Origin: Promicromonospora sukumoe | GTDB taxonomy: Bacteria > Actinomycetota > Actinomycetes > Actinomycetales > Cellulomonadaceae | Direction of reading: 5' to 3' | Length of the DNA stretch: 64,000 nt | Assembly: GCF_014137995.1 (NCBI RefSeq) | Contig: NZ_JACGWV010000002.1 | Span: 248,001 to 312,000 of the forward strand | Shown here: piece after piece, positions 2 to 61,993 of the stretch | Layout: each line of letters starts with the position of its first letter | How positions within the stretch are numbered: position 1 is the stretch's first letter | The notes under the pieces: model-generated | Seen by the model: the letters and a program-made list of their open reading frames with translations, nothing else | Told to the model about the DNA's origin: nothing | Databases searched by the model: none | Made by a program: the position numbers and the translations under genes

Positions 2-412
2 CGCGCCATGCTCGCCGTGCGCGACGGCGCGCGCCTGATCGCCTCGACCGGGCCCCGGGCGCCCAACCTCGCCAACTCGGTGGCCCAGGTGGCGCACCTG
101 GAGGCCCAGGGCTTCGCCGGGACGGACGCGGTGCTGGCGTTCATCGCCGTCTCCCGGTACACGATCGGGGCGACGCTGGAGGAGCAGTCGGCGCCGGGCG
201 AGGCGGCCTTCGTGGCCGACGACGGCGCCGGCCCTGGTACCGGCGGCGGCGCCGGGGGTGACCGCAGGGGTGACGCGGTCGAAGACGCCGGCCTCGAGGG
301 CGCCGACCATCTCCTGGCGGTCGTCCGGGCCGTCGCCGACCTCGGCGCCGCGCACGAGTTCGACGTCGGGCTCACGGCGCTCGTGCGGGGCCTGGCGCCG
401 TCGGACGACTGA
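2..412 (+). CDS. TetR-family transcriptional regulator, C-terminal part
   Basis: The reading frame is already open at the left edge, so the N-terminal helix-turn-helix lies outside the window and the ATG at 8 is internal. The 130-odd visible residues resemble the ligand-binding and dimerisation domain of the tetracycline-repressor class: an RDGARLI segment, then a hydrophobic helix, then TIGATLEEQ, matching the family pattern of a helix ending in LEEQ. A Gly/Asp-rich loop (about residues 70-90) and a last amphipathic helix follow. The family represses a neighbouring efflux or enzyme gene until it binds a small ligand; the target is probably to the left and is not visible. The 3' end is reiterated (397-453). 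Confidence 0.75.
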   Translation, partial: RAMLAVRDGARLIASTGPRAPNLANSVAQVAHLEAQGFAGTDAVLAFIAVSRYTIGATLEEQSAPGEAAFVADDGAGPGTGGGAGGDRRGDAVEDAGLEGADHLLAVVRAVADLGAAHEFDVGLTALVRGLAPSDD

Positions 413-453
413 ACCGACGTCGGACGGGTGGGCCGCCGTCGGACGGCTGAACG
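397..453 (+). repeat. Three 19-bp degenerate copies of the TetR gene 3' end
   Basis: Units at 397-415, 416-434 and 435-453 share the core GTCGGACG. The first contains the real TGA (410-412) and the third regenerates CGGACGGCTGAAC, including a TGA. This is one of many stop-straddling reiterations in the window. It reaches the stop codon of the convergent DUF3592 gene. Confidence 0.8.
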
Positions 454-454
454 G

Positions 455-1228
455 TCAGACGGGCTCGGCCGACGGCTCCTCGGACGGTCCGAGCGACGAC
501 TCAGCGGCTGATCCAGCGGCAGATCCGGAGGCAGATCCGGAGGCAGGCCCGGCGGGCGGTTCGACGAGCGCCCGGGCGGGCCTGTCGGCGTCGTACCGGA
601 GGGTGACCTGGTCCCCGACCGCGTGCGCGGCGCCCCACGTGGTCTCGACGAGGGTCTGCTCGCCGGCGAACGGGTGCCGCCAGCGGACGGTGGTCGCCAT
701 GCGCGGACGACCGTTGAGGACGACCTTGCCGGCCGCGCGCACGTCGGTGACCGTGCCCGTGGCCCGCTGACCGGTGCGGGCCAGCCGACGCCGCGCGGCG
801 CCCCGCCCCCAGACGAGCAGCACGGGAACTCCCGCGCCGGCGAGCGCCAGCGCGACCAGGCCGAAGATGGTCTCCAGCCAGTACCCGTAGGCCGCGTCGA
901 GGCGTGCGTCGCCCGGGTCGGCGGGGTCGTACAGGACGGTGACGCGCTCGCCGACGGCGTACCGCGGCGGGTTGGTGCCGGTCCGGTCGGTGAAGCCGTG
1001 CTCCTGGCCGCCCACCTCGTACGCCACCTCCGCGTGGTAGGTGGAGCGCGTGGTGCCCTCGTCGCTGCTGCTGTACTGCTCGTCGAGGCCGACCACGACG
1101 CCGTCGACCGCCTGGGCGTCGGCCAGGAAGCCGGCGGTCCGCACCGCGAGGACGCCCGCGACCGTGCCGAACACCGCCGCCATGACCAGCAGTCCGACGG
1201 CGACGAGGAGGAGGGCACGAGATCTCAT
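455..1228 (-). CDS. DUF3592-type membrane protein
   Basis: A 257-residue protein with an N-terminal membrane helix (about residues 7-28), a soluble segment of about 80 residues carrying VTVLYDPADPGDARLD, a second membrane helix (about 118-142) and a second copy of the soluble fold ending LRYDADRPARALVEPP. The 'VxxLYDPxxPxxA' pattern marks the DUF3592 family, whose function is unknown. The last 30 residues are Ser/Gly/Ala/Pro low complexity built from short DNA repeats. The ATG at 1228 has no convincing ribosome-binding site. It converges with the TetR gene. Confidence 0.7.
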   Translation of the reverse strand: MRSRALLLVAVGLLVMAAVFGTVAGVLAVRTAGFLADAQAVDGVVVGLDEQYSSSDEGTTRSTYHAEVAYEVGGQEHGFTDRTGTNPPRYAVGERVTVLYDPADPGDARLDAAYGYWLETIFGLVALALAGAGVPVLLVWGRGAARRRLARTGQRATGTVTDVRAAGKVVLNGRPRMATTVRWRHPFAGEQTLVETTWGAAHAVGDQVTLRYDADRPARALVEPPAGPASGSASGSAAGSAAESSLGPSEEPSAEPV

Positions 1229-1263
1229 CGGGGCATCGAACCACGCGCGGTTCCCGCGCGCGA

Positions 1264-1343
1264 CGCCCTGGACGTCCTGGACGTCAACTTCGCCCTGGAC
1301 GTCGGACTCGCCCTAGTCGAGCTCCCCCTAGACGTCGAGCTTC
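1264..1343. repeat. Degenerate ~18-bp reiterations of the DUF5808 gene 3' end
   Basis: On the minus strand the last codons GAAGCTCGACGTCTAG are followed by GGCGAGTCCGACGTCCAG and GGCGAAGTTGACGTCCAG, with shorter partial copies between and after. The copies run from the stop at 1328 through almost the whole gap to the DUF3592 gene, which reads the same way. Confidence 0.75.
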
Positions 1344-1651
1344 GCCCGGACGATCGCGACGACCCGGCCCACGTTGACCGCCCAGCCGACGCCGAAGACG
1401 CGCGGCCCGACGACGTGCTCCGCCTCCGGGTCCCACAGCCGCTCCTTGGCGCGCTCCAGGGTCGGGAACCGGAAGTCGTACGGCACGACGGCCGCGACCT
1501 TGCCGTTCCAGGTGCGTTCGTCCTCCGGCTTGCGCAGCTCCTTCACGATCGCCGCGACCGCAAGGCTGATCGTCACGAGCGTGAGGAGCCGGTTGAGGCC
1601 GCCCTTGCGGTGCTTCTTCGTTCCGCTGCCGCCCGACGTGCTGGATCCCAC
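1328..1651 (-). CDS. Small DUF5808-like membrane-anchored protein
   Basis: The GTG at 1651 is preferred (107 residues) because GGAGG lies about six bases upstream; a longer frame opens at 1735 but encodes an implausible charged leader. The protein starts with a Gly/Ser/Lys-rich tail, then one membrane helix (LLTLVTISLAVAAIVKEL), then a soluble part with RTWNGKVAAVVPYDFR and PTLERAKERLWDPE. That pattern of a helix followed by a GxVxxxVPYDFRxPT-like motif is seen in short actinobacterial DUF5808 proteins of unknown role. The downstream DNA is a degenerate repeat of its own 3' end. Confidence 0.65.
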   Translation of the reverse strand: MGSSTSGGSGTKKHRKGGLNRLLTLVTISLAVAAIVKELRKPEDERTWNGKVAAVVPYDFRFPTLERAKERLWDPEAEHVVGPRVFGVGWAVNVGRVVAIVRAKLDV

Positions 1652-1810
1652 GACGTCCTCCGGGGTTCGCGGCGCCGGTCCTTGGTCCCGGTGCCTGTCG
1701 CCACCATCCTGGTCCACGCTCCTGGTACACGCCACGGGAGGTCGCCGACGGCGGGCGTTTCGGCGGGCGATTTGCCGACGTGTCGGAGGCAGGTGGCATG
1801 CTCGACGCCC

Positions 1811-2254
1811 ATGGGCTTGATCACCGACTACTTCATCGCCGGCTCCGACTCCGAGGCGGCGCGATTTCTCGACGGCGGCGTCTACGGCGCCGGGCTGGAC
1901 GCCGACGACCTCCAGGAGGCCAAGGGCATCGACCCGTTCATCATGCTCCGGACGCTGGAGGCGACGCTGACCGGTCAGCCGTACGACGAGATCGCGGAGG
2001 ACCAGGGCGACCCCGTCGGCCTGGGCGACGACGGCGGGTCCGGCGTCGTGCGGGTGCGCGGCGTGCTCACCACGGCCCTCGCCGACCTGGCGCCGGGCCG
2101 CGTGGCGGAGGTCGCCGCGACCTGGGGACGCACCGAGGAGTTCGGTCCGGACGCGGACGCCGAGGGTCCCGTCGAGTTCCTCACGGGTCTGTCGGCGCTC
2201 GGCCGCCGCGCGATGACCCGGGGCGGGGACCTGTACTGCTGGTTCTCCGTCTGA
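1811..2254 (+). CDS. Conserved hypothetical acidic protein
   Basis: A 147-residue soluble protein beginning MGLITDYFIAGSDSEAA. It is rich in Asp and Glu, has no signal peptide or membrane segment, and ends in GGDLYCWFSV. Proteins of this shape occur alone in actinobacterial genomes without an assigned role; I do not recognise a characterised family. The ATG at 1811 is the first in frame after the divergent DUF5808 gene; no strong ribosome-binding site is seen. The last 19 bases are duplicated just after the stop (2236-2274). Confidence 0.6.
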   Translation: MGLITDYFIAGSDSEAARFLDGGVYGAGLDADDLQEAKGIDPFIMLRTLEATLTGQPYDEIAEDQGDPVGLGDDGGSGVVRVRGVLTTALADLAPGRVAEVAATWGRTEEFGPDADAEGPVEFLTGLSALGRRAMTRGGDLYCWFSV

Positions 2255-2303: not shown

Positions 2304-3200
2304 TCACCGCAGGGCGGCGAGCACCCGGGCGCAGCGGGGCGGGTCCTCGGTGAGGCCGTTCTCCAGCCCCCAGACCCAGTAGTCCGTGACGCGCCACCGC
2401 GCCCACGCCCGGGCCAGCCCGTCGTCGAGCCCTGCGGCCTCGACCAGCACGTCGAACCAGCGGGGTATCTCGTGGTCGGCCATCTCGTCGACGCGGTGCC
2501 AGAGCACGTTCACCGCGGTCCGCTCCGCGTCGCCGCGCCGCAGCACGGGGTCGACGACGCACCACCGGCCGTCCCGGTCGCGCAGCACCTGGTCGAAGTG
2601 CAGGTCGGCGTTCACCGCGAGGGGCTCCCGGTCACCGGCGAGGATCACGTCCGCGGCGTCGGCGGCCCGGACCAGGACGGACTCGTCGAAGGGCCGGCCC
2701 AGCCGTTCCCAGGCAGGCCGCAGGCCCGGCGTCAGTGCGGCCACGTCGTCCGCCGTGTGCCCGACGCCGGACGCGACCCCGTCGTCGGCGGGGACCGCGA
2801 GGCGGCGTGCGGTCCGGCCGATCTCGGGGAGAGCGACGTCCAGGGGCTCGTCGGCGAGGGTGCGGTTCGGATCGAGCCGGTCCAGGAGCAGGACGCCGGC
2901 CGCGGTGTCCGCCGCGAGCTCCTCCACGACGCCCTGGCCGCGCCAGAACTCCAGCGCGACCGAGAGCGCTGCGGTGTCGTCGCCCGGCGGCGTCAGCCGG
3001 AGCGCGGCCGGCGTCCCCGCCCGACGTACGGGGACGACCAGGGCGTTCGAGCCGTGCACGGGCGGCCCGTCCACAGTCAGTCGCCAGCGCCGGCACCAGG
3101 TGTCGACGAGGCCCGGGAGGTCGGACAGCCAGCGCTGCTCCGCCGGCGTCGCCGTCCACCAGCGCGGCATCGCGAGGAAGGACGCGGGGACCTCGACCAT
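2304..3200 (-). CDS. Aminoglycoside/streptomycin 6-kinase-like phosphotransferase
   Basis: A 298-residue protein of the aminoglycoside/hydroxyurea kinase family (StrK/APH(6) type), a protein-kinase-like fold that transfers ATP phosphate to a hydroxyl of a small substrate. It opens MVEVPASFLAMPRW, typical of the family. The catalytic loop is NADLHFDQVLRD with the Asp and His in place, followed by the metal-binding Asp in WCVVDPVL. Nucleotide-binding residues lie in the VVPVRRAGTPAALRLTPP strand pair; note the absence of a classical Lys there. The natural substrate is unknown, and chromosomal members need not confer resistance. It lies 22 bases downstream of a nucleotidyltransferase-NUDIX gene read in the same direction. 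Confidence 0.8.
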   Translation of the reverse strand: MVEVPASFLAMPRWWTATPAEQRWLSDLPGLVDTWCRRWRLTVDGPPVHGSNALVVPVRRAGTPAALRLTPPGDDTAALSVALEFWRGQGVVEELAADTAAGVLLLDRLDPNRTLADEPLDVALPEIGRTARRLAVPADDGVASGVGHTADDVAALTPGLRPAWERLGRPFDESVLVRAADAADVILAGDREPLAVNADLHFDQVLRDRDGRWCVVDPVLRRGDAERTAVNVLWHRVDEMADHEIPRWFDVLVEAAGLDDGLARAWARWRVTDYWVWGLENGLTEDPPRCARVLAALR

Positions 3201-9555: not shown

Positions 9556-9605
9556 GGATCTTCAGCCGGATCTTCGGCCGGGTGCCCGGCCGGATCTTCA
9601 GCCGG
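9556..9605. terminator. Bidirectional hairpin built from GGATCTTCAGCCGG repeats
   Basis: GGATCTTCRGCCGG occurs at 9556-9569, 9568-9581 and 9592-9605. Between the second and third copies GGCCGGG (9576-9582) faces CCCGGCC (9585-9591). The region lies between convergent genes, so it can end both transcripts. The third copy contains the stop codon of the XRE gene (9598-9600), so these are reiterations of that gene's 3' end. Confidence 0.6.
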
Positions 9606-10449
9606 AGGTCGAGCGCAGCGTCTGCGCGCCGATGACGGAGAGCACCTGGAGCTTCTCGTAGCTCTCGCTGCCCGGGACGGCGGTGTAGACCATCAGAGCG
9701 TGGGCCTGCCCGGGATCGACGAGCCGCTGGCAGTTGAGCTCCAGCGCGCCGACCTCGGGGTGGACGAAGTGCTTGACCTCATGGGGATGGATGCCTATCT
9801 CGTGGTCGTCCCACACGCGCCGGAACTCCTCGTTGCTCTCCAGGAGCAGCCCGGCCAGGTAGGCGGCCCGGGAGTCGGGGCCGCGCAGCGTGACCAGACC
9901 ACGCAGGCCGGCGGCGTACATCCGGGTCATGAACGCGTGCTCCTCCGGGGCGTACAGGTCCCGGGCGCCCGGTTCGGTGAACCACCGGTACCCCAGACTG
10001 CGGGCCGGGCCGGTGTACCGGGTCGTGTCGCCGGTGAGCGCCACCCCCATCGGCGTCTGCCGCAGGGTCTCGCCCAGCTCGGTGACGATCTCCGCGGGCG
10101 TGTCCGCCAGCCGGTCGAGGATGCGCAGCAGCCCCGGGCTGATGTGCTCGCTGGACGAGCCCCGGGGCGGCGGGTTGTGCCCGGCGAGGCGGAACAGGTG
10201 GTCGCGCTCGTCGATCGACAGGTGCAGCCCTTGGGCGATCGACGCCAGCATCTGCGGCGACGGCTGCGGCCCGCGCTCCCGCTCCAGGCGGGAGTAGTAG
10301 TCCGCCGACATGTTGCACAGCGTCGCGACCTCCTCGCGCCGGAGCCCGCTGGTCCTGCGGCGCTGCCCACGCGGCATGCCGACGTCCTCCGGCTGCAGCG
10401 CCTCACGCCTGCTGCGCAGAAAGCCGGCCAGCCCGGTGCGGTCGATCAT
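9598..10449 (-). CDS. MmyB-like XRE-family transcriptional regulator
   Basis: A 283-residue regulator. Residues 8-80 form an XRE helix-turn-helix: FLRSRREALQP, then TSGLRREEVATLCNMSADYY as the recognition helices, then SRLERERGPQPSPQMLASIA. Residues 100-270 match the MmyB ligand-binding domain, a PAS-like fold first described beside methylenomycin genes; this type binds fatty acid-like ligands. It is divergent from an MFS transporter, and a twin repeat (10464-10494) lies in the shared promoter, so it probably controls that transporter. This is the usual arrangement for the family. Confidence 0.85.
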   Translation of the reverse strand: MIDRTGLAGFLRSRREALQPEDVGMPRGQRRRTSGLRREEVATLCNMSADYYSRLERERGPQPSPQMLASIAQGLHLSIDERDHLFRLAGHNPPPRGSSSEHISPGLLRILDRLADTPAEIVTELGETLRQTPMGVALTGDTTRYTGPARSLGYRWFTEPGARDLYAPEEHAFMTRMYAAGLRGLVTLRGPDSRAAYLAGLLLESNEEFRRVWDDHEIGIHPHEVKHFVHPEVGALELNCQRLVDPGQAHALMVYTAVPGSESYEKLQVLSVIGAQTLRSTSG

Positions 10450-10463
10450 CGCGCTCCCCCTTG

Positions 10464-10494
10464 TGGAGTACTGCCTCTTCTGGAGTACTGCCTC
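10464..10494. promoter_or_regulatory. Twin TGGAGTACTGCCTC repeat, probable operator
   Basis: TGGAGTACTGCCTC occurs at 10464-10477 and 10481-10494, 17 bases apart start to start. Each copy contains the palindrome AGTACT. They lie 15-45 bases upstream of the XRE start and on the side facing the MFS gene, as expected for a dimeric XRE protein bound to near-adjacent sites. Binding is inferred from position only. Confidence 0.55.
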
Positions 10495-10662
10495 GTTTCT
10501 ACCGGCTGCGCATCGGGTTAGCCACGGCCCGGCGATCCCCCTTTACGCCTCTCGGAGCGAGGAGGTGACAGGGCCAGCCTGTGATCGGGAGGTCCTGGAT
10601 AGGTCTTCGCCGTCCGCCCAGGCTCGTTGCCACAGCCGACGTCGAACCTGAGGAGCAGCCGT

Positions 10663-12099
10663 ATGAGCCCGGTCCCTGAACCTGCCTCTGACCTTGTCCC
10701 CCGTAGTACCGATGCTCTGCCCGGTGCCCAGCCCGGTGCCCAGCGCACCGCCGGCCGGACGCGGAGCCCGTGGTGGGTGGTCGTCGGCGCCGGGACGGCG
10801 AACGCCGTCGGACCCCAGATGTACCTCGCCACCACCGGCATCTTCGTGCTGCCGATCGTGCAGGACACCGGCTTCAGCCGCACGACGGTGACGGGCGCCT
10901 ACTCGGTCGCCGCCGTCGGCATGGTGATCGGCCTGCTCCTCGTCAGCCGGCTCGTGGACCGCTACGCCGCGCGCTACATCCTCGTGCCCGGGTTCCTGCT
11001 GTTCGCGGCCTCGATGGCGACGATCGGCCTGGTCCCGGCGGTCGAGTGGATCTACTTCATCCCCTGCTTCTTCGTGGGCTTCTTCGGCGCCGGCACAGCG
11101 ATCCCCGCCTCCCGGGTGGTCGTGGGCTGGTTCGACAACAACCGGGCCCTCGCCGTCGGCGTCGTCACGGGCATCATCGGCCTGGGCGCCGCGCTCGGCC
11201 CCCTGCTGGCCGGGGCCCTGATCGACGGCGTCGGCTGGCGGCTGGCCTACGGCTGCATGGCACTGATCGCCGCCGTCGTGTCCGTCACGATGGTCACCTT
11301 GTTCGTGCGCGGCCGCGCCGAGCGGCACGTCCGCGGGCGACTCGTCCAGGAGACCCACGTCGGCGACCGGGACGTCAGCCTCGAGCTGCCGGGCCTGACC
11401 TTCCGTGAGTCGCTGCGCACCCGGCAGTTCTGGAACATCGCTCTCGGGCTCGGCCTGGTCGGCGTAGTCGTGATCGGCCTGCAGGTGCACCTCGTGCCGA
11501 TGATGACCGACCGCGGCCTGAGCCCCGACGAGGCGGCCCGGCTGCTGGTCGTCTTCGGCGTCGCCTCGCTGGTGGGCCGGGTCGTGGGCGGCGTCGTCAT
11601 CGACCGGGTCCACGGCTCGATCGTCGGACCGATCGTGATCCTCGCGCCCATCGCGGGCATGTTCTTCCTGCACCCGCCGTTCTCCACGGCCGCCGTCGCG
11701 GTCGCGTTCATCGGCGTCGCGTTCGGCATCGAGGGCGACCTGCTGGCCCTGCTCATCACGCGGTACCTCGGCATGCGCAACTTCGGCCGGATCATCGGCC
11801 CGATCCAGGCGATGTTCATCCTCGGCAGCGCGTTCGGGCCCCTGCTCCTCGGGCTGGGGTACGACGAGCTGGGCTCCTACGACCCGGTCATGCCGGTGCT
11901 GATGGGCGTGCTCGTGGTCGGCGCCGTGCTCATCGCGACGCTGGGCCGGTACGTCTACCCGGCCGTGGACGGCTTCGACCGGCTCGCCGCGCGCGACGAG
12001 CTCGCGGCCGCCGAGGTGCTGAGCGACATCGCCGAGAGCCAGGACTCCCCTGCCTCGTCCTCCCCGGCGGGGCGGGCGCGCTTCGAGGTCCGGGGCTGA
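10663..12099 (+). CDS. MFS transporter, OFA-like
   Basis: A 478-residue major facilitator protein with about twelve membrane helices in two halves joined by a charged loop (about 210-245). The segment PASRVVVGWFDNNRALAVGVVTG resembles the oxalate/formate antiporter branch, which exchanges small monocarboxylates or organic acids. Other recognisable parts are YAARYILVPGFLLFA in the first half and VFGVASLVGRVVGG in the second. GAGGAG before the ATG at 10663 fixes the start. It is divergent from the MmyB-like regulator and probably controlled by it. A perfect 20-bp stem terminator follows. The cargo cannot be read from the sequence. Confidence 0.8.
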   Translation: MSPVPEPASDLVPRSTDALPGAQPGAQRTAGRTRSPWWVVVGAGTANAVGPQMYLATTGIFVLPIVQDTGFSRTTVTGAYSVAAVGMVIGLLLVSRLVDRYAARYILVPGFLLFAASMATIGLVPAVEWIYFIPCFFVGFFGAGTAIPASRVVVGWFDNNRALAVGVVTGIIGLGAALGPLLAGALIDGVGWRLAYGCMALIAAVVSVTMVTLFVRGRAERHVRGRLVQETHVGDRDVSLELPGLTFRESLRTRQFWNIALGLGLVGVVVIGLQVHLVPMMTDRGLSPDEAARLLVVFGVASLVGRVVGGVVIDRVHGSIVGPIVILAPIAGMFFLHPPFSTAAVAVAFIGVAFGIEGDLLALLITRYLGMRNFGRIIGPIQAMFILGSAFGPLLLGLGYDELGSYDPVMPVLMGVLVVGAVLIATLGRYVYPAVDGFDRLAARDELAAAEVLSDIAESQDSPASSSPAGRARFEVRG

Positions 12100-12119
12100 C
12101 TCACACGCACCCGTGGGAC

Positions 12120-12166
12120 GACGGGCCGGCTCCGGACCATCTGGTCCGGAGCCGGCCCGTCTTTCT
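12120..12166 (+). terminator. Perfect 20-bp stem terminator
   Basis: Bases 12120-12139 pair without mismatch with 12142-12161, followed by CTTTCT. It ends the MFS transcript. On the opposite strand it also lies downstream of the oxygenase gene (stop at 12206), after two copies of an 18-bp element. Confidence 0.85.
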
Positions 12167-12205
12167 GGTGGCACTGGTCTTTCAGGTGGCGCTGGTCTGG
12201 CCGGC

Positions 12206-13387
12206 TCAGCGGGCGGCGACGTGGTCCTGGTACGCCGCGTTCCCGTCGCCCAGGGCGGCGATCAGACCGCGGAAGGCGAGGACGCCGTCGTCGACCGCCT
12301 CCTGCACCGCGCCGGGAACCTGGAGCTGGTAGCCGCGCGCCTTCGCCTCCCCGGCCGCGAGCAGCGGCAGCACGGAGGCGACGGGCGACTCCGGGATGCC
12401 GAGCGCCGTCGCGGCCTCGCCGTGATAGCGGCCGGCCAGGGCGTTGAGCAGGTCGCGCCAGCCCGCCGCGTCCATCGGCGACCGCGGCACGGCCGCGAGG
12501 TTGGTGGTCGCGGCGTCGAACAGGGCTCCGACCAGGGCCCGGCTGTTCTCGTCCGGCGCCTCGGACGTCGAGTCGACGAGGTCCAGCAGCTCACCGGCCT
12601 GCTCGTGGTTCCCGATGCCGAGGAAGAGCTCCTCGTCGAGGCCCAGCAGGTGGCCGACGTACCACCAGTACCGGTACAGCTGCGCCTGCTCCTCGCCGGT
12701 GAGCCGGTAGCCGATGCCCTCCAGGAACGTGAAGGGCACCACGGTGAAGTCGAGCCAGGTGCGCGCCGTGTCGGCCTGGTTGATCGGCACTCCCCAGCGG
12801 GCGGCGTCCCACCCGTGCGCGGTGGCGGAGGCCCGCACCCGCGCGTGCAGCAGGCGGACCTGGACCGTCTGCACGTAGCCGGGCGCGCCGTGCCGCAGAC
12901 CGCCGGGCAGCACCACCGACGCGTTCCACAGCCCGGTCTCGGCCAGCCGGCGCGGCGCCGTCGACGTCAGCCGGCCGGTCCCCACGAGCAGCCTCGCGAT
13001 CGCCGGGGACCGGTAGGTGTGCGCCAGCGAGCCGCCCGCGAAGGCGAGGCCGCGCCAGTGCGGCGGCACGGCGAGCGACGTCCGGTCCCCCGCGTCCAGC
13101 AGGTCGGACGCGACCCACCCGGGCACCGTCTCGACCTGGTCGAGCAGCGCGGCGACGCCGGGCGGAGCGTCCGGCACGCTCGCCCGGCCCTCGGCGAGGC
13201 CACGCTGGAGCGCCGCCCGGGCGGGGCGGCCGAGCGCGTCGAGCTCGACGACGACGGCGTCGGCCAGCGGGTCACCCGTCCGCACCTTCTGGACCATGAG
13301 GTCGACCCGGTCGCCGTGCCGGGCGCGAGCCGCGGCGAGGTTGACCAGGCGGTCGGGGGCTGGTGGGGCATTGTTCGAGAGGGTCAT
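12206..13387 (-). CDS. MpaB-family oxygenase (DUF2236)
   Basis: A 393-residue, largely helical protein of the oxygenase MpaB/latex-clearing protein family, heme-dependent or heme-like oxygenases. Visible family features are WRGLAFAGGSLAHTYRSPAI, ETGLWNASVVLPGG, the VRLLHARVRA helix with the His expected as an axial ligand, WGVPINQADTARTWLDFT, and YRYWWYVGHLLGLDEEL. It lacks a Tat or Sec signal, unlike secreted Lcp, so a cytoplasmic role is likely. The ATG at 13387 is preceded by GGATGGCGG. The substrate is unknown. Confidence 0.8.
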   Translation of the reverse strand: MTLSNNAPPAPDRLVNLAAARARHGDRVDLMVQKVRTGDPLADAVVVELDALGRPARAALQRGLAEGRASVPDAPPGVAALLDQVETVPGWVASDLLDAGDRTSLAVPPHWRGLAFAGGSLAHTYRSPAIARLLVGTGRLTSTAPRRLAETGLWNASVVLPGGLRHGAPGYVQTVQVRLLHARVRASATAHGWDAARWGVPINQADTARTWLDFTVVPFTFLEGIGYRLTGEEQAQLYRYWWYVGHLLGLDEELFLGIGNHEQAGELLDLVDSTSEAPDENSRALVGALFDAATTNLAAVPRSPMDAAGWRDLLNALAGRYHGEAATALGIPESPVASVLPLLAAGEAKARGYQLQVPGAVQEAVDDGVLAFRGLIAALGDGNAAYQDHVAAR

Positions 13388-13476
13388 GCCGCCATCCAAG
13401 CCACCGCGCCGGAGGACAACCACGGCCTGGTGATCCCCCTCTGCGGGGTGTTCTGCGGGCCGTGAGCCGTGCGGCC

Positions 13477-14391: not shown

Positions 14392-14599
14392 TCAGGGGTC
14401 CCTTCAAGGGGTCGCCCATGTTCGGAGCGCGGGGCGGCGAGCCGGAACTCAGGCAGATCAAGCAGGTGGACACCGCGCACGGACGCGCCATGGGCGCGCA
14501 CGCCTTGGCCCGCGGGCGCGGGCGGGCGTCGCGGGAGCGATTCCGTGCGGGGAGGCAGCGCCCTCGGTCAGCTGCTGACCAGGGCTGTCACCAGCCAGG

Positions 14600-15046: not shown

Positions 15047-15125
15047 ACGCCTCGACGCCGACCGGCGGTCGTGCGGCCGCGTTGGGAGTGACCTTCGAGC
15101 GGGCTCGACGGTCTACCGTCGGGTC

Positions 15126-15194
15126 ATGGACAGGATGAGGATCGGCGAGCTGTCGCGGCGCAGCGGGATACCCGGCCCGGAGACGATCCGATGA
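15126..15194 (+). pseudogene. Remnant of a MerR-family regulator, now a 22-residue ORF
   Basis: ATG at 15126 encodes [20 protein letters not shown] plus two residues before TGA. The [13 protein letters not shown] part is the classic first helix and turn of a MerR-family DNA-binding domain, which normally continues 'xxTIRYYE' for about 100 more residues. The frame stops exactly at the next gene, with its TGA overlapping the YnfA ATG (ATGA). The likeliest history is a deletion joining the start of a MerR gene to ynfA. The leftover may now act as a leader coupling translation to ynfA. Confidence 0.6.
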
Positions 15195-15526: not shown

Positions 15527-15592
15527 CCACGGGCACGCCGTAGCGGCGGCGTCGCCCGGCACCGTGTCCGTTCCGTTACTGTTGGCCTCGCC

Positions 15593-16048: not shown

Positions 16049-16061
16049 GCCACCACTCCCC

Positions 16062-17004: not shown

Positions 17005-17011
17005 CCCTCCC

Positions 17012-39502: not shown

Positions 39503-39505
39503 TTC

Positions 39506-50710: not shown

Positions 50711-52474
50711 TCACCCAGCACCGCCAGGATCACCGAGCATCACCGGATCGGCCGGTGCCGCCGGATCGGCGATCGTCCTGCCGTGCCGGTCCGTGAACGC
50801 CCATCCTCCGACGCCCTCGCGCCAGCGCATCGTGACGCCGGTCGTGTCGACCAGGTCGTGGTGGTGGTAACAGAGCAGGGCGCCGTTGGCCACGGAGGTC
50901 TCGCCACCGTCGGCCCAGTGCCGGACGGCGTGGTGGACCTCGCACCGCGACGGTGGCTGGTCGCACGACGGATAGACGCAGTGCTGGTCGCGAGCCATCA
51001 CCGCCCTGCGCATCTGGCCGGTCACCGTCCGGTGCGCCCGTCCGACGTCGAGGACCGCACCGTCCGGGCCGAACACCACCCGCGTCACGGCGCTGTCGCA
51101 GGCCAGCCGACGGAACAGGCTCCTCGGCACGACGCTGTCCCGACCGTCCCCGACCAGTGTGGGCGGGACCGAGTCGAAAGCCGCACCCGACCGCACGGGC
51201 GAGGGCAGAGCTGAGCCACCAGCACCAGCACCAGCACCAGCACCAGCACCAGCACCAGCACCAGCACCAGCACCAGCACCAGCACCAGCACCAGCACCAG
51301 CCAATCCTGGCCCGGCGCCCGTACCCACACCCGCGCCTCCGCTGCGGCTCGACCGTTTGACCAACCGGTCCATCTCACTGAGCGACACCAGCACGCTGAT
51401 CTGCGGTCGGACCGCCGACCCGGAACCCGTCCGGCCGTTGTCGAGCGCCGTACGCGCCAGGTCCGCGAGCGCCTGCGCGCGGCGCTGGGTCGGGGTCCGG
51501 TCGTCGCCCGGGGTGGGCTTGCCCATCACCGACCCGAGCGCAGCGCTCAGGGCGTGGCCGTGCTCGTCGGTGAGGAATCCCTTGATGTGGAACCCGCCCA
51601 GTGTCTGGGCCAGCTCGAGGTGCTCGCGCTCCTTGGCGATCCGGTAGCCGCGCTCGTCGGCATCGGGGTCCGCCTGGTCGGCGAACCGGTCGACGATGCG
51701 CCGGAAGCCGTCCGGCGTGTTCAGGTCGACGTGGGTCAGGAGCAGTTCCTCGCCCGTCAGCAGCCTGCGCTTCCGCTTCGTCTCACCGCCGTCACCAACT
51801 CCGCCGCCACCATTCCCACCGTCATCAAGCCCGCCGTCACCAACTCCATCACCGGCAGCACCTTCGCCGGAGCCGTCGTCGCCTCCGGGCCCGCCACTCC
51901 CGATCACCTCGAACTCGGTCACGCCGGGGTCCACGAGGATCTCCTCGGCGAGCGCCTCGGCACGCATGTCCGACGTCGGCGCCTTGTCGATCATCGCGCG
52001 CACCTGCTCAGGCCCCACGCGGCCGGCCAGTGCCCCCGCGAGGGTCGCCGGAAGGTACGCCGCGAGCCGCCGTCCGGCTTTGACGTCGCGGCTCGCCGTG
52101 CCGAAGCGCACGTGCTCCCGCCGGGCGAGCCACGCCGGGAAGGTCCGTGATCCGTCGGTCGCCCACAGGCCATGTGCCTCGATCCTGGGCAGCCACGACA
52201 CGCGCAGGACGTCGAGCCGGTGCACCGCCGCACGCATCGCCGGCGACAGCGACGTCAGCCGATCCGCCACGGCACCGGCGCCGGCACCACCACCACCAGC
52301 ACCAGCACCAGCACCAGCACCAGCACCAGCCAGTTCCTGCGCGTCCAGCACCGCCGGACCGCCCACCTCGACGAGCTCGTCGACGATCCGGCCCAGGTCG
52401 GCGACGACGTCGACCAACCCGCGCGGGGATTCCGTTCCCACCCGCTGCTCCGCCTCGACCACCACGGCCGTCAC
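50711..52474 (-). CDS. 13E12/DUF222-HNH nuclease-like protein with Gly-Ala arrays
   Basis: About 587 residues. An N-terminal DUF222 helical domain (VHRLDVLRVSWLPRIEAH, then REHVRFGTASRDVKAGRR) precedes a central helical region with TGEELLLTHVDLNTPDGFRR and ends in an HNH domain: QHCVYPSCDQPPSRCEVHHA, then HWADGGETSVANGALLCYHH with the zinc Cys pairs and catalytic His. These 13E12-family proteins are common in actinobacteria; nuclease activity is presumed. Two Gly-Ala arrays (about 28 residues and about 12) come from hexanucleotide repeats on the other strand, at 51218-51301 and 52295-52330. The GTG at 52474 is one of several possible starts; an open frame runs to 52693. Confidence 0.8.
   Translation of the reverse strand: MTAVVVEAEQRVGTESPRGLVDVVADLGRIVDELVEVGGPAVLDAQELAGAGAGAGAGAGGGGAGAGAVADRLTSLSPAMRAAVHRLDVLRVSWLPRIEAHGLWATDGSRTFPAWLARREHVRFGTASRDVKAGRRLAAYLPATLAGALAGRVGPEQVRAMIDKAPTSDMRAEALAEEILVDPGVTEFEVIGSGGPGGDDGSGEGAAGDGVGDGGLDDGGNGGGGVGDGGETKRKRRLLTGEELLLTHVDLNTPDGFRRIVDRFADQADPDADERGYRIAKEREHLELAQTLGGFHIKGFLTDEHGHALSAALGSVMGKPTPGDDRTPTQRRAQALADLARTALDNGRTGSGSAVRPQISVLVSLSEMDRLVKRSSRSGGAGVGTGAGPGLAGAGAGAGAGAGAGAGAGAGAGAGAGAGGSALPSPVRSGAAFDSVPPTLVGDGRDSVVPRSLFRRLACDSAVTRVVFGPDGAVLDVGRAHRTVTGQMRRAVMARDQHCVYPSCDQPPSRCEVHHAVRHWADGGETSVANGALLCYHHHDLVDTTGVTMRWREGVGGWAFTDRHGRTIADPAAPADPVMLGDPGGAG
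51218..51301. repeat. Hexanucleotide ACCAGC array, 14 units
   Basis: ACCAGC is repeated without interruption 14 times (84 bases). On the coding (minus) strand it is GCTGGT, encoding alternating Gly and Ala within the DUF222-HNH protein. Because the unit is six bases, length changes keep the frame and alter only loop length. It is the longest perfect repeat in the window. Confidence 0.97.
52295..52330. repeat. Hexanucleotide ACCAGC array, 6 units
   Basis: Six perfect units, with ACCACC-type variants on the left side (52283-52294). It lies in the N-terminal region of the same gene as the 14-unit array and encodes a second Gly-Ala stretch. Confidence 0.95.
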
Positions 52475-52726
52475 CCCCTTCCGCACCTCGGCCACAACAA
52501 TCCCGAAACCTGATCGATGACCCCCACCGTAGGGAACAGACGTCCGCAGTGGAGTCCAGAAATCAGATCTGTGCACAACCCTTCGAAAAGGTCGCCTGTG
52601 GTCGCACTCCCTCAGTGCAACCACGGCACGAGGGGCTCTCACTGCCCGGGCAACACCGACCACTTCCCCGGCAACACCGACCCCCGCCACCACGCTTCAC
52701 CCCGCCTGCCAGACCCGCCTGCAAGA

Positions 52727-55546
52727 ATGGGCAGCACCATGACCGCGCCCTCCTCGACAACGTCGACAACCTCGACCGCTCCCCCGTCCACCGACCGGCC
52801 CGCCTCGTCGTCGGGCGCCCCGAAGCCCGCAGGGACACTGATTCCCTACCTGCCCGCGCCCACGGGCAAGGACCCCGACCCGGACGTCCTGTTCGAGAAG
52901 TTCGGCGAGTGGGCCGCGGCGGGCGGGCGCGCGCTGTACCCGCACCAGGAGGAGGCCCTCCTGGAGGTCATGACGGGGTCCCACGTGGTCCTCGCGACGC
53001 CCACGGGCTCCGGCAAGTCGATGGTCGCCATGGGCGCGCAGTTCGCCGCGCTGGCCGCCCACCGCTCCGGGCGCGGTGGCCGCACCTATTACACGGCCCC
53101 GCTCAAGGCGCTGGTCAGCGAGAAGTTCTTCGACCTGGTCGCCGCGTTCGGTTCGAAGAACGTCGGCATGATGACGGGCGACTCCGCCGTCAACCCGGAC
53201 GCCCCGATCATCTGCTGCACCGCCGAGATCCTCGCGAACCTCGCCCTGCGGCGCGGCGACGCCGCGGAGGAGAGCGACACCGCCGCGGACGACGAGGCCA
53301 TCGCCCAGGTCGTCATGGACGAGTTCCACTACTACGGCGACCCCCAGCGCGGCTGGGCGTGGCAGGTGCCGCTGCTGGAGCTCACGAACACGCAGTTCAT
53401 CCTGATGAGCGCCACGCTCGGCGACACCGCCCGCCTGCGCGAGGACATCGAGGAGCGCACCGGGCGGCCCGTCGCCGAGGTCGCGGGCGCCGAGCGCCCC
53501 GTGCCGCTCACCTTCTCGTACGTGGTGGAGCCGCTCACCGAGGTGATCCAGGAGCTGGTGACCACGCACCGCGCCCCGGTCTACGTGGTCCACTTCACGC
53601 AGAAGGACGCCGTGGACCGCGCGCAGTCCCTGCTGTCGATGAACGTCTCCAGCAAGTCGGAGAAGGAGGCGATCATCGCGGAGATGGGCGCCTTCCGGTT
53701 CGGCACCGGGTTCGGCAAGATCCTCAGCAAGTTCCTGCGGCACGGCGTGGGCGTGCACCACGCGGGCATGCTGCCCAAGTACCGCCGCCTCGTGGAGCGC
53801 CTGACGCAGAAGGGCCTGCTCAAGGTCGTCTGCGGCACCGACACCCTCGGCGTCGGCATCAACGTGCCGATCCGCACGGTGCTCCTGACCAGCCTCGTGA
53901 AGTTCGACGGCGAACGCATGCGCCACCTCAGCGCCCGCGAGTTCCACCAGATCGCCGGGCGCGCGGGCCGCGCCGGGTACGACACGGTGGGCGAGGTGCT
54001 CGTCATGGCGCCCGAGCACGTCATCGAGAACCGCAAGATCCTGGCCAAGGCCGGCGACGACCCGAAGAAGCTCAAGAAGATCGTCCGCAAGAAGGCGCCG
54101 TCGGGCTCCGTGAACTGGACCGACGCCACCTTCGAGCGCCTGCGCGACGCCGATCCCGAGCCGCTGGTCTCCCAGTTCCGCGTGAACCACGCGATGGTGC
54201 TCAACGTCCTGGCGCGCGGCACGGCCCACGGCACGGCGCGCGGTGCGGCCCACGCCGACGCGGGCGACCCCGTCGACGCCATGCGCCACCTCCTGACCGC
54301 CAACCACGACTCGGAGACGCAGCAGGCCGCGCATGTGCGGCAGGCGTTCCGCATCTACCGCTCCCTGCGGCTCGCGGGCGTCGTGGAGAAGGTCCGGGTG
54401 CCCGACGGCGACGGCGGCCTGCGGCCGTCCGCACGCCTGATGGTGGACCTCCCCCGCGACTTCGCGCTCAACCAGCCGCTGTCGCCGTTCGCGCTCGCCG
54501 CCATGGACCTGCTCGACGTCGAGAGCCCCACGCACGCGCTCGACGTCGTCTCCGTCATCGAGGCCACCCTGGACGACCCACGCCAGGTGCTCATGGGCCA
54601 GCAGAACCGGGCGCGCGGCGAGGCCGTCGCCGCGATGAAGGCGGAGGGGCTGGAGTACGAGGAGCGCATGGAGCTGCTGGAGGAGGTCACGTGGCCCAAG
54701 CCGCTGGCCGACCTCCTGGAGCCCGCGTTCCAGACCTACCGCCGCACCAACCCGTGGGTCGCGGACGCCGAGCTGTCGCCCAAGTCCGTGGTGCGCGACA
54801 TGGTCGAGAAGGCCATGACGTTCGCCGAGATCGTGAGCGTGTACGGGCTGGAGCGCACCGAGGGCGTGGTGCTGCGCTACCTCGCCGACGCGTTCCGGGC
54901 CGTGCGCCAGGTGGTCCCCGAGGAGCACCGCACCGAAGAGGTGCAGGAGATCATCGAGTGGCTCGGCGAGCTCGTGCGCGGCGTGGACTCCTCGTTGCTC
55001 GACGAGTGGGAGCGCTTGGCGAACCCTGTGGACGACGATGCCGACCTCGTGACGGACGGCGAGCTGGCCGACGCCGGGGCCGAGGCGCCCGTGCGGCCCG
55101 TGACCGGCAACCCCCGTGCGTTCCGGCGCCTGGTCCGCAACGCGATGTTCCGCCGGGTCGAGCTCGTCGCGCGCGAGGCTTACTCGGCGCTGGCGTCGCT
55201 GGACCAGGGCTGGGACGCCGACGCCTGGGGCGACGCCCTCGACCCGCTGTTCGAGGAGCAGGGCGACGACGCCGTCGGCATCGGCCCGGAGGCCCGCTCG
55301 GCCGCGCTGCTGACGATCCTGGAGCCGGGCGCGGAGCTGCCCAGCAGCAGCGGCACCAGCGGCACCAGCACCAGCGGGCAGGACGGCGAGACCGGCCGCG
55401 TCGAGCCCGGTACCTGGTGGGTGCGGCAGGTGCTCGACGACGCCGACCGCAACCGCGACTGGGCCATCACCGCCCGGATCGACCTGGCGGCCAGTGACGA
55501 GGCGGGCGAGGTCGTGCTGACGGTGGTCGCCGTCGGCCAGATCTAG
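52727..55546 (+). CDS. Ski2-like DExH-box helicase with DUF3516-type C-terminus
   Basis: A 939-residue helicase. Walker A ATPTGSGKSMV, motif Ia TAPLKALVSEKF, the DExH box VVMDEFHYYGD, motif III MSATLGD, then motif IV-V (VGVHHAGMLPKYRR, CGTDTLGVGINVPIRT) and motif VI HQIAGRAGRAGYD. The C-terminal third (about 500-930) matches the DUF3516 extension, with ESPTHALDVVSVIEATLDDP. The family is common in actinobacteria and may act on RNA; targets are unknown. The start is the ATG at 52727 or 52739; neither has a strong ribosome-binding site. The first 45 residues are Ser/Thr/Pro low complexity. It is divergent from the DUF222 gene. Confidence 0.9.
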   Translation: MGSTMTAPSSTTSTTSTAPPSTDRPASSSGAPKPAGTLIPYLPAPTGKDPDPDVLFEKFGEWAAAGGRALYPHQEEALLEVMTGSHVVLATPTGSGKSMVAMGAQFAALAAHRSGRGGRTYYTAPLKALVSEKFFDLVAAFGSKNVGMMTGDSAVNPDAPIICCTAEILANLALRRGDAAEESDTAADDEAIAQVVMDEFHYYGDPQRGWAWQVPLLELTNTQFILMSATLGDTARLREDIEERTGRPVAEVAGAERPVPLTFSYVVEPLTEVIQELVTTHRAPVYVVHFTQKDAVDRAQSLLSMNVSSKSEKEAIIAEMGAFRFGTGFGKILSKFLRHGVGVHHAGMLPKYRRLVERLTQKGLLKVVCGTDTLGVGINVPIRTVLLTSLVKFDGERMRHLSAREFHQIAGRAGRAGYDTVGEVLVMAPEHVIENRKILAKAGDDPKKLKKIVRKKAPSGSVNWTDATFERLRDADPEPLVSQFRVNHAMVLNVLARGTAHGTARGAAHADAGDPVDAMRHLLTANHDSETQQAAHVRQAFRIYRSLRLAGVVEKVRVPDGDGGLRPSARLMVDLPRDFALNQPLSPFALAAMDLLDVESPTHALDVVSVIEATLDDPRQVLMGQQNRARGEAVAAMKAEGLEYEERMELLEEVTWPKPLADLLEPAFQTYRRTNPWVADAELSPKSVVRDMVEKAMTFAEIVSVYGLERTEGVVLRYLADAFRAVRQVVPEEHRTEEVQEIIEWLGELVRGVDSSLLDEWERLANPVDDDADLVTDGELADAGAEAPVRPVTGNPRAFRRLVRNAMFRRVELVAREAYSALASLDQGWDADAWGDALDPLFEEQGDDAVGIGPEARSAALLTILEPGAELPSSSGTSGTSTSGQDGETGRVEPGTWWVRQVLDDADRNRDWAITARIDLAASDEAGEVVLTVVAVGQI

Positions 55547-55575
55547 CCGGCCAGATCCAGCCGGGCAGATCTAGC
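55535..55575 (+). repeat. 14-bp reiterations of the helicase gene end
   Basis: GGCCAGATCTAGCC (55535-55548, with the TAG stop at 55544-55546), then GGCCAGATCCAGCC and GGGCAGATCTAGC. The third copy regenerates TAG. The unit boundaries match the last two codons plus stop. Confidence 0.85.
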
Positions 55576-57148: not shown

Positions 57149-57190
57149 TGTCAGACGTACAGGTCCCCCCGGGGACCTGTACGTCTGACA
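57149..57190. repeat. Inverted repeat, dispersed palindrome family, copy 2
   Basis: TGTCAGACGTACAGGTCCCC (57149-57168) pairs perfectly with GGGGACCTGTACGTCTGACA (57171-57190) around two bases, a 20-bp stem. It is nearly the same core as copy 1 at 40637-40692 and lies between convergent genes, where it would terminate both. Confidence 0.9.
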
Positions 57191-57265
57191 CGTACGGGGT
57201 GGGACAGGTGCAGGTGGGACAGGTGCAGGTGGGACAGGTACGGGGTGGGACAGGTGCGGGGTGGG
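57191..57265. repeat. 15-16-bp repeats echoing the TauE gene end
   Basis: GTGGGACAGGTGCAG-like units recur about five times. On the minus strand they read CACCTGTCCCACCCC after the gene end CCTGACCCACCCC. The stop of the TauE gene (57266-57268) lies at the edge of the first unit. Units near the palindrome end GTACGTGTCAG, joining the two elements. Confidence 0.7.
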
Positions 57266-58039
57266 TCAGGCCGCCAGGCCGAGCAGGCCCCGGGCGAGCG
57301 TCGCGAACCCACCGATGTAGGCGAGCGTCACGAGCACCTTGCGCGTGGCGCTCGCCGAGATCCGTCCGACGAGCAGCTCGCCCAGCCCGATGGAGGCCAC
57401 GAGCGCGACGCCGACGGCCACCCACTCCCAGACGGCGAAGCCGGGGAACGTGACGTCGGCGACCAGGAGCTTGGCCGTCATCGCGGCGATCGCGTTGGTG
57501 AGGAAGATGGGCTGGGCGGTGGCCGCGAAGTCGCGGGGGTCCCAGCGGTCGAGCACGGAGTAGACGGCGATGGGCGGGCCCCCGATCCCGGCGGCCACGC
57601 TGCCGAAACCGGCCGCGGCACCCGTGACGAGCAGCGGCAGCCGGGCCTCCGGCGCGAACGGCCGCTCCGCGCCCCGCAGCCGCGAGGTCACCAGCGCGAG
57701 CGTCATCGCGACCACGACGACGCCGCCCACCCCGATCTCCAGGGCCGACGCGCTCGCCTCCCGGATGACCAGCGCCGCCGGCACGCTGACCGCCACGGAC
57801 GCGCTCACCAGCCAGCCGTAGCGACGCCAGTTCACGTGCCGGATCGTGCGCCCGAGCACGAGCAGCGCCATCAGCGCCCCCACGAGGTTGACGAACATGA
57901 CGCCCTCGATCGGGCCGATCAGGAGCACGATGAACGGCCCGGCGACGAGTCCGAAGCCCATCCCCGCCACGCGTTGCAGGGAGCCCCCGACGAGGATGGC
58001 GAGGACGAGGAGGGCAAGCACGCCCCCTACGCTAGCCAC
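57266..58039 (-). CDS. TauE/SafE-family sulfite or organosulfonate exporter-like permease
   Basis: A 257-residue membrane protein with about eight helices: ALLVLAILVGGSLQRVAGMG, the family's first block, LLIGPIEGVMFVNLVGALMAL and AAGFGSVAAGIGGPPIAVYSV, the second signature. The start is the GTG at 58039 (GGAAA upstream). Longer frames extend to 58291 but overlap the divergent YbaK gene and consist of 18-bp repeated GAAPSDG-type codons. TauE proteins move anions such as sulfite or sulfoacetate; the cargo here is unknown. Confidence 0.8.
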   Translation of the reverse strand: MASVGGVLALLVLAILVGGSLQRVAGMGFGLVAGPFIVLLIGPIEGVMFVNLVGALMALLVLGRTIRHVNWRRYGWLVSASVAVSVPAALVIREASASALEIGVGGVVVVAMTLALVTSRLRGAERPFAPEARLPLLVTGAAAGFGSVAAGIGGPPIAVYSVLDRWDPRDFAATAQPIFLTNAIAAMTAKLLVADVTFPGFAVWEWVAVGVALVASIGLGELLVGRISASATRKVLVTLAYIGGFATLARGLLGLAA

Positions 58040-60755: not shown

Positions 60756-60795
60756 CCTCCTGATCCGGCCGGTCAGGCAGCGAGTTCGTTAGTTT

Positions 60796-60833
60796 GCATT
60801 GAGATCGGCACAGACCTGTGCCGATCTCAATGC
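60796..60833 (+). terminator. Perfect 17-bp stem, AT-richer than its surroundings
   Basis: GCATTGAGATCGGCACA (60796-60812) pairs perfectly with TGTGCCGATCTCAATGC (60817-60833) around GACC. It closes the GNAT transcript or the convergent murQ one. The following bases start a 19-20-bp repeat. Confidence 0.75.
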
Positions 60834-60925
60834 GTACTGCCGACCTCGATGCGAACTGCCTACCTCACCGCGAACTGCCGACCCTGCTTCGTACTGCCGA
60901 ACTCACACCTTGCTGACGGAGCTGG
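60832..60925. repeat. 19-20-bp degenerate repeats at the murQ gene end
   Basis: GCGTACTGCCGACCTCGAT, GCGAACTGCCTACCTCACC, GCGAACTGCCGACCCTGCTT and CGTACTGCCGAACTCAC follow one another. On the minus strand they follow the murQ stop (60926-60928), after a gap of about 20 bases. Confidence 0.75.
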
Positions 60926-61885
60926 TCAGGCCGGCTCGATGCCCAGCCTCGCCAGCGCCTCGCGGACCGACGGCCCGGTGAACCGGCCCGGCTCGACGGC
61001 CAGCGCCGCGACCGCCGCGGACCGGTCGACGCCCGCCACGAGCATCACGAGGGCTGCCCGCAGGTCGCCGTCGGTCGCCGCGAGCGCGTTCGCGCACACG
61101 TCGGCCTCCAGGTCGGTGGCCTGCGTGAGCAGGCGCACCAGCCGCTTGCGCAGCTTCTCGTTGGTCGCGAGCACCTCGACCATGAGGTTCGAGTAGGTCT
61201 TGCCGAGCCGCACCATCACCGCGGTGGAGAAGGTGTTCAGGACCATCTTCTGGGCGGTGCCCGCCTTCATGCGGGTGGACCCCGTGATGGCCTCCGGCCC
61301 GGTGTTCACCAGGATCGGTACGTCGGCCTTGGGTGCCAGGGCGGCGAACGGGTTCGACGCGAGCAGCACGGTCCGCGCCCCGCGGGAGCGGCCCATGTCG
61401 AGCGCTCCCCCGACGTACGGGGTGTTGCCGCTGGCGGCGATCCCGAACACGACGTCGGCCGGCCCGACGTCGGACACGAGCGCGGCGCCGGCCTCGACGT
61501 CGTCCTCGGCGCCCTCGGCCGCCTTCTTGAAGGCGCCCAGCCCGCCCGCGAGGTGCGGGACGAACATCTCCTCGCCCACGCCGTACGTGGGCAGGAGCTC
61601 CGCGGCGTCGAGCAGGCCCATGCGGCCCGACGTGCCCGACCCGACGTAGTGCACCCGCCCGCCCGCGCGGATACCTTCCACCGCCAGGTCGATCGCCTCG
61701 ACGATGCGCGGGTGTGCCGCGCGTACCGCGGCGATGACGGCGGCGTCCTCGTCGGTGATCATGCGCACCATGTCCGCCGTGGAGACCACGTCGATGTCAC
61801 GGGTGCGCGGGTTGCGCTCCTCGGTGGGTGAGACCGGGCGCGGCGCCGACTGTGCGTGCCGTTCGAATCCCGCCTCGGCGATCAT
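60926..61885 (-). CDS. murQ: N-acetylmuramic acid 6-phosphate etherase
   Basis: A 319-residue SIS-domain enzyme that removes the lactate ether from MurNAc-6-phosphate, giving GlcNAc-6-phosphate for reuse. It starts with the TEERNPRTRDIDVVST motif, has YVGSGTSGRMGLLDAAELLP, the catalytic Glu in GAFKKAAEGAEDD, GIAASGNTPYVGGAL and MKAGTAQKMVLNTFSTAVMV. Length is standard. AAGGGGG precedes the ATG. It is the last gene of a leftward recycling group (ABC permease, nagZ, murQ). Confidence 0.96.
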   Translation of the reverse strand: MIAEAGFERHAQSAPRPVSPTEERNPRTRDIDVVSTADMVRMITDEDAAVIAAVRAAHPRIVEAIDLAVEGIRAGGRVHYVGSGTSGRMGLLDAAELLPTYGVGEEMFVPHLAGGLGAFKKAAEGAEDDVEAGAALVSDVGPADVVFGIAASGNTPYVGGALDMGRSRGARTVLLASNPFAALAPKADVPILVNTGPEAITGSTRMKAGTAQKMVLNTFSTAVMVRLGKTYSNLMVEVLATNEKLRKRLVRLLTQATDLEADVCANALAATDGDLRAALVMLVAGVDRSAAVAALAVEPGRFTGPSVREALARLGIEPA

Positions 61886-61936
61886 CAGCGAGCCCCCTTC
61901 GTTCTGCTTGCGCTGTGCTCATGGACTTCTTGCTGC

Positions 61937-61993
61937 ACATCTAACTGCTGGTCAGACAACTGCTGGTCATCGCTCATGACTGCTCATCACTGC
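61937..61993. repeat. Repeats at the nagZ gene end
   Basis: AACTGCTGGTCAGAC and AACTGCTGGTCATCG, then CTCATGACTG and CTCATCACTG, lie in the nagZ-murQ gap and at the nagZ stop. On the minus strand the stop region CAGTGATGAG is copied as CAGTCATGAG. Same stop-straddling pattern as elsewhere. Confidence 0.65.

Follow-up and report, generated by a model that had tools for sequence, protein, structure and literature searches.

Introduction

Mycobacterial interspersed repetitive units (MIRUs) are tandem intergenic units that can overlap stop or start codons and that belong to one dispersed homologous family. As passages of the paper on Borg archaeal elements describe (PMC9879509), the tandem repeats of these elements have arisen independently and change fast; unit lengths within open reading frames are divisible by three, and the arrays lie between genes or have their first unit partly within a gene end. 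Passages of two further papers describe direct TAACTGA repeats in marine Beggiatoaceae, which overlap stop codons and provide stops in all frames (PMC4679880), and the uptake signals of Neisseria and Pasteurellaceae, motifs of about 9–11 nt with generally at least 1,000 copies per genome, whose paired copies form terminators in tail-to-tail gaps (PMC1852404). Here we analyse short tandem arrays at gene ends in a stretch of 64,000 nucleotides from Promicromonospora sukumoe (G000:C2:248001-312000, hereafter the window), whose genome comprises 6.51 Mb in four contigs. For one protein of the window, the closest named relatives belong to Promicromonospora. A preliminary description had attributed these arrays to a recurrent duplication process acting near stop codons, possibly linked to replication or transcription termination. 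Our data favour a different reading: the arrays are probably short tandem duplications that arise along the chromosome and that selection leaves mainly between genes.

In total, 81 stretches (1596 kb) were scanned for ungapped tandem arrays with periods of 6–60. Block-shuffled sequence gave 4 and 6 matches compared with 218 in the real sequence (844 kb). Genes were called with a purpose-built codon model and named using Pfam, which confirmed the earlier gene names wherever a model matched. Stretches with less than 66% predicted coding sequence were excluded: four own stretches from the gap-class and frame counts and from the placement test, four stretches of relatives from the placement test as well, and six own stretches from the 20-kb density, hairpin-association and regional-density counts. 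Five own stretches (L004, L012, L133, L213, L224) and four of relatives (L178, L185, L188, L189), each of 20 kb, have a GC content of 0.66–0.69 and are 25–60% coding in the codon model; such low-GC, low-coding stretches are probably DNA of different codon usage.

Results

Outside the window (57 stretches), arrays were most frequent in convergent gaps (1.32 per kb), followed by co-directional gaps (0.55), divergent gaps (0.36) and gene interiors (0.19). The corresponding densities in the window were 6.03, 2.80, 2.98 and 0.34 per kb. Reading frame clearly separated the classes: outside the window the period was a multiple of three in 157 of 162 gene-interior arrays compared with 10 of 31 arrays in convergent gaps.

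For the placement test, 334 gap-touching arrays (score at least 12) from 58 own stretches and 34 stretches of relatives were slid over all positions that leave both neighbouring proteins intact. By this test, 55 stop codons were covered where 51.0 were expected (window 7 against 6.7; other own stretches 26 against 24.2; relatives 22 against 20.1). Start codons were covered 10 times where 28.8 were expected (0 against 2.5, 4 against 12.4 and 6 against 13.9, respectively). Stop overlap at expectation together with start overlap below it suggests that stops are neutral ground and that starts are avoided. A duplication process acting near stop codons is thus not borne out, and no stop enrichment is left in the sample once the control respects protein-preserving placements. 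The proposed preference for gene 3′ ends over 5′ ends held within the window, with 4 matches in the last-60-base regions and 1 in the first-60-base regions, but not outside it, where C-termini were not enriched (8 matches in 52.9 kb and 9 in 53.1 kb, respectively).

Comparison with relatives supported the view that the duplication is local and recurrent. At the orthologous ends of leuD, the helicase, the aldo/keto reductase and DUF1624, species differ in their arrays or have none; the leuD end carries a 17-mer of its own in the window, a different, TAG-straddling 17-mer in G008 and other arrays in G005 and G003. Among the 20 gap-by-species cases with arrays in both species, 16 shared no 10-mer, indicating lineage-specific arrays, and 4 shared one; two of these four concern the repeat GGAACAACT, which lies upstream of the gene for an IclR-type regulator. 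G010 lacks the TauE-end arrays, even with a TauE protein 99% identical across the matched segment. The different arrays at orthologous ends and the absence of the TauE arrays in G010 point to a process that is both recent and recurrent. Repeated targeting of the same gap across species was not found among seven relatives (Fisher p 0.33–1.0). In other genera (65 of 79 loci used), 0–0.75 gap arrays per kb were detected, except for Curtobacterium (1.21) and Promicromonospora (0.81).

Between leuC and the IclR-type regulator, the window holds four copies, spaced at 11 bp, of a GGAACAAC(T)-like sequence (28039-28081). The match of the adjacent regulator is 100% identical in seven relatives. As this repeat shares 10-mers with G009 and G010, it looks like a conserved operator.

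Inverted repeats (score at least 14) were present in 95 of 180 convergent, 99 of 464 co-directional and 5 of 206 divergent gaps, the pattern expected of terminators. Arrays were not associated with these hairpins in convergent gaps (odds ratio 1.28, p 0.59), and the association in co-directional gaps was weak and not significant (odds ratio 2.17, p 0.09), so that terminator-hairpin linkage was rejected. In convergent gaps of 60–120 bp (n = 78), arrays were even commoner without a hairpin (0.38) than with one (0.12). The sense-strand skew of C over G in co-directional gaps was the same for arrays (0.03, n = 75) and controls (0.05, n = 658); Rho loading by C-rich arrays was rejected because of this lack of an overall bias. 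Absolute skew exceeded that of control DNA in convergent (p 3e-10) and divergent (p 5e-5) arrays, but with values of 0.22 and 0.26 it showed no excess over random 15-mers (0.21) and is therefore an effect of repeating a short unit. An effect of the replication origin was dismissed as well, dnaA being located at C2:1506480, about 1.2 Mb from the window. With arrays neither associated with hairpins in convergent gaps nor C-skewed overall on the sense strand, the suggested link to transcription termination found no support.

These data also bear on the idea that selection favours the arrays, either as terminators or for the spare stop codons they offer in other frames, an idea that we consider unlikely. 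It would fit a family of 16-bp modules described below, which forms very stable hairpins (z −15.2 and −13.8), is mostly convergent (23 of 29 elements) and has a TAG in each module (a consequence of how the search core was defined), and it would also fit the 12 co-directional arrays of the window, mostly C-rich on the sense strand in a post hoc observation. However, most array-bearing convergent gaps in the window have no long hairpin (exceptions are 57149-57190 and 60777-60852), the array at the end of the gene for a 147-residue protein (2236-2274) is no more stably folded than shuffled sequence (z 1.36; 183 of 200 shuffles fold equally well), and arrays are not conserved between species. Furthermore, the periods in convergent gaps do not avoid multiples of three, and spare stop codons were rejected for this reason.

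Quite improbable is the view of the preliminary description that duplication is directed to stop codons, to transcription termination sites or to sites of replication–transcription conflict. Convergent gaps are indeed the richest class, arrays occur in 8 of 9 convergent gaps of the window compared with 32 of 171 elsewhere, and co-directional gaps show more stop overlap than expected (24 against 16.5). On the other hand, total stop overlap equals free placement, hairpins and arrays are not associated in convergent gaps, and there is no overall C-rich bias of the sense strand. Finally, it is highly improbable that the arrays are copies of dispersed repeat families and not local duplications: 16-bp and 19-bp families and palindromic hairpins do recur between genes in part of the genome, the murQ array resembles a 19-bp one, and 16 of 37 window gap arrays match elsewhere in the sampled genome (E < 1e-3), but no 16-bp core occurs in the window, and unit-shuffled arrays match as well (32 of 156 compared with 69 of 156 real ones at the same threshold), so that much of the dispersed matching is low complexity.

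The high density belonged to this region: the window held 58 arrays over its 64 kb, whereas 264 were counted over 1116 kb in the remaining 57 own stretches. Array density in the window was about six times that of the rest of the genome sampled. Gap arrays numbered 37 in 10.9 kb of predicted gap, up to 4 of which fall inside a DUF222 open reading frame (50711-52693) missed by the gene predictor, compared with 118 in 208.9 kb in the other own stretches. When only periods not divisible by three were counted, 16 arrays in 64 kb stood against 71 in 1596 kb. None of 73 other 20-kb stretches held more than 6 gap arrays, and the direct flanks of the window are ordinary (0–0.9 arrays per kb). Because the window was chosen by a reader who had noticed repeats, its own excess may be selected. 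The syntenic regions of two relatives are nevertheless hot as well: G009 has 24 arrays in 9.5 kb, its three other stretches 2 in 15.3 kb; G010 has 33 in 13.4 kb and, over its ten other stretches, 21 in 26.4 kb, of which 16 come from the single stretch L207. Gene-interior arrays are likewise raised (0.40–0.44 compared with 0.09–0.18 per kb). G010 is hot past the syntenic block too (1.2–2.4 per kb in L197, L198 and L200), which the own genome is not, and G006 is not hot in the syntenic region (0.55 compared with 0.38 in the rest of the contig). In well-annotated stretches, 0.8–1.3 arrays per kb were counted in G003 and G011, 0.66 in G005 and 0–0.2 in G008, values that stand without genome baselines for comparison. 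L207 itself (G010:C10:1700001-1720000) is a second array-rich stretch of G010, with 16 gap arrays in 20 kb.

Differences at four-fold sites, in the window compared with elsewhere, amounted to 0.257 and 0.239 to G010 (38 and 83 genes), 0.238 and 0.232 to G006 (36 and 59 genes), and 0.253 and 0.202 to G009 (18 genes, and only 3 elsewhere). A general mutation hot spot was rejected, as this divergence is hardly raised in the window. Synteny with seven relatives and an ordinary GC content speak against foreign DNA for most of the window.

The preliminary description had listed 12 gene ends with stop-straddling arrays. Comparison of the best ungapped array with 400 dinucleotide shuffles verified an array at all 12 sites; no shuffle reached the score at 11 of them and 2 did so at nagZ. 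The stop codon, however, was covered at only seven (TetR, the 147-residue protein, XRE, aldo/keto reductase, helicase, TauE and DUF5808), the arrays at leuD, DUF1624, 42984, murQ and nagZ adjoining a stop without covering it. Units were specific to their locus, as had been claimed, except for the murQ unit, which on visual inspection is similar to a dispersed family of 19-bp hairpins. Most arrays are degenerate, unlike perfect units; that at 2236-2274 is exact.

At the left end of the window, an array with a 19-bp step (396-452; detected as period 38) lies in a convergent gap and covers the stop (410-412) of the gene for a TetR C-terminal-domain protein (8-412, plus strand; PF02909). Degenerate arrays (1264-1352) occur on the 3′ side of the DUF5808 gene (1328-1735, minus strand; PF19124), where the best ungapped one (1264-1303) ends before the stop codon at 1328, which is covered only by a looser Tandem Repeats Finder array (1279-1352). 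Two exact copies of a 20-bp unit (2236-2274) in the next convergent gap cover the stop (2252-2254) of gene 1793-2254 (plus strand), which encodes the 147-residue protein, and a 16-bp array (2277-2315) marks the 3′ end (stop at 2304) of the converging gene 2304-3200 (minus strand). No Pfam family was found for the 147-residue protein or for the product of 41921-42976.

Further along, a 12-bp-step array (9556-9606; detected as period 36) in a convergent gap covers the stop of a helix-turn-helix/MmyB-like regulator gene (9598-10449, minus strand). The 17-bp array 25747-25788, in the convergent gap 25733/25822 by leuD (25822-26457, minus strand), covers neither stop. At the DUF1624 site, a 14-bp array (39505-39569) in a convergent gap starts 2 bp past the stop of 38111-39502 (plus strand). 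Arrays of the same period cover the stops of the aldo/keto reductase gene (array 40755-40805; gene 40793-41764, minus strand) and of a DEAD helicase/DUF3516 gene (array 55534-55575; stop 55544-55546), and a 15-bp array (42993-43047) lies 17 bp downstream of 41921-42976 (plus strand). The convergent gap 57132/57266 contains 15/16-bp arrays (57198-57270), the second of which (57228-57270) covers the TauE stop. In the convergent gap before the murQ-like SIS gene (60926-61885, minus strand), a long hairpin (60777-60852; z −8.5) is overlapped by a 19-bp array (60819-60883), both together spanning 60777-60883. A weak 15-bp array (61943-61969) lies downstream of the nagZ-like gene (glycoside hydrolase family 3; 61987-63810, minus strand).

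Two hairpins of the window belong to a dispersed palindromic family (TGTCAGACGNACAGGTC type), one 3′ of the aldo/keto reductase gene (40644-40685; z −9.7) and one in a convergent gap (57149-57190). The palindrome at these two sites, GTGTCAGACGTACAGGTCNCC..., is highly conserved and recurs in many own stretches; 31 clusters were counted over about 1.66 Mb of own sequence, most of them directly after stop codons. A modular 19-bp hairpin family (GGTCGGCAGNNNGTCAGGTGGTCGGCAG type) occurs at gene ends in the own stretches L005, L016, L025, L028, L123, L124, L131, L212, L216, L223 and L227; 17 clusters were counted in the sampled own sequence, and its strict pattern was present in 1 of 297 genomes of the order.

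The 16-bp modules GTTCTAYYTCGCYNNR, a genus-limited family, are arranged in tandem on both arms of inverted repeats (86 matches with at most 3 mismatches; none for a control pattern). Sites in the own genome are L236, L238, L239, L240, L241, L243, L244, L249, L252, L255, L257, L259, L261, L020, L039, L137 and L226; the family core was not found in the window. We surveyed 29 different elements, drawn from the first-listed loci in three genomes (own 14, G008 8, G011 7), of which 25 were inverted, 23 lay between convergent genes and none was inside a predicted gene. Flanking stops fell within elements 15 times, and 14 of these stops (13 elements) corresponded to the outermost module's TAG. Between the two arms, matching spacers were identical in 15 of 38 pairs compared with 5.4 expected, and the module numbers of the two arms were not correlated (rho −0.05). 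Both elements that were folded gave the very stable hairpins mentioned above. Exact cores numbered 41 in the own genome and 0–152 per genome in 13 of the genus (present in 10 of 13; 3 control matches overall). Of the genomes of the order that were searched, the own one contained the two-module pattern, and 296 others, with no further member of the genus among them, did not. In one convergent gap that could be placed in seven genomes, the own genome, G010, G009 and G008 carry the 16-bp family and G006, G003 and G001 other hairpins. Since 16 is not divisible by three, TAG would come to stand in all three frames once three modules are present. The elements may be bidirectional terminators that also catch read-through ribosomes. 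Among the literature matches listed, titles and abstract openings held no description of this family or of tandem arrays in Promicromonospora.

Apart from the arrays, a segment of about 11 kb (9600-20560; genes 10777 to 20449) had no match in the syntenic stretches of the relatives examined. Its flanking genes are only about 550 bp apart in G010, which suggests either insertion in the own lineage or loss from the others. A 760-bp convergent gap contains three minus-strand tRNA genes (30766-31111); Rfam detected only three tRNAs in the eight source sequences searched, all in the window.

Discussion

According to the reading that we consider probable, duplications of mostly about 10–20 bp would arise along the chromosome, most likely by replication slippage, and would then decay through point mutation. 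Inside genes only multiples of three would survive, and duplications over start codons would be removed. A stop-spanning duplication begun in the last codons would survive as well as any in non-coding DNA, since the first copy still ends the protein, which is thus unchanged. As such duplications leave the protein intact, gene ends would collect them, and convergent gaps, with two gene ends and no start, would keep most arrays. In this way a filter can mimic a mechanism. The window is conspicuous through its regionally dense arrays, in the own species and in two relatives.

Several points weigh against this explanation. The gene ends were predicted and not curated, and slippage was not observed. 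In co-directional gaps alone, stop overlap exceeded the expectation (24 compared with 16.5). Within the window, divergent gaps match co-directional ones in array density (2.98 and 2.80 per kb), perhaps partly due to missed gene starts. Moreover, the regional excess, which extends into genes, goes beyond selection alone and is not explained by it.

We tentatively suggest that a chromosomal domain of about 60–140 kb, shared in position by at least three Promicromonospora species, may fix tandem duplications several to about 20 times more often, inside as well as between genes and without a marked rise in silent substitutions. Such a domain-specific duplication process would differ in extent, or be absent, in other close relatives. 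If true genome-wide, the regional hot spot would offer a natural setting for asking why one domain fixes short duplications more often while silent substitutions remain nearly level. The 16-bp module family, for its part, represents a compact hairpin design, in which the modules would supply both convergent genes with a stop codon in one frame after another.

Like MIRUs, the arrays of the window are intergenic tandem units that can overlap stop codons, but most of their units are unique to their gene. The TAACTGA repeats, as far as the passages cited describe them, are comparable to the 16-bp family; they consist, however, of one 7-nt motif mostly directed toward start codons, whereas each window unit is unique and the 16-bp family forms inverted arrays at convergent gene ends. 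The uptake signals, again as portrayed in the passages cited, share with the 16-bp family closely spaced inverted copies of a short motif that are frequent in tail-to-tail gaps (25 of 29 elements inverted, 23 of 29 convergent). Unlike them, the 16-bp family has only 41 exact cores in the own genome and 0–152 per genome in the genus. Closest are the Borg repeats, to judge from the parts of that paper cited: independent origin, fast change, a frame filter inside genes and arrays that lie between genes or start within gene ends are common to both. Borg repeats are perfect, A-rich and element-wide, whereas those of the window are degenerate and GC-rich and concentrate in one region of a bacterial chromosome. 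The window arrays are best filed with the Borg-type repeats, as short duplications filtered by selection.

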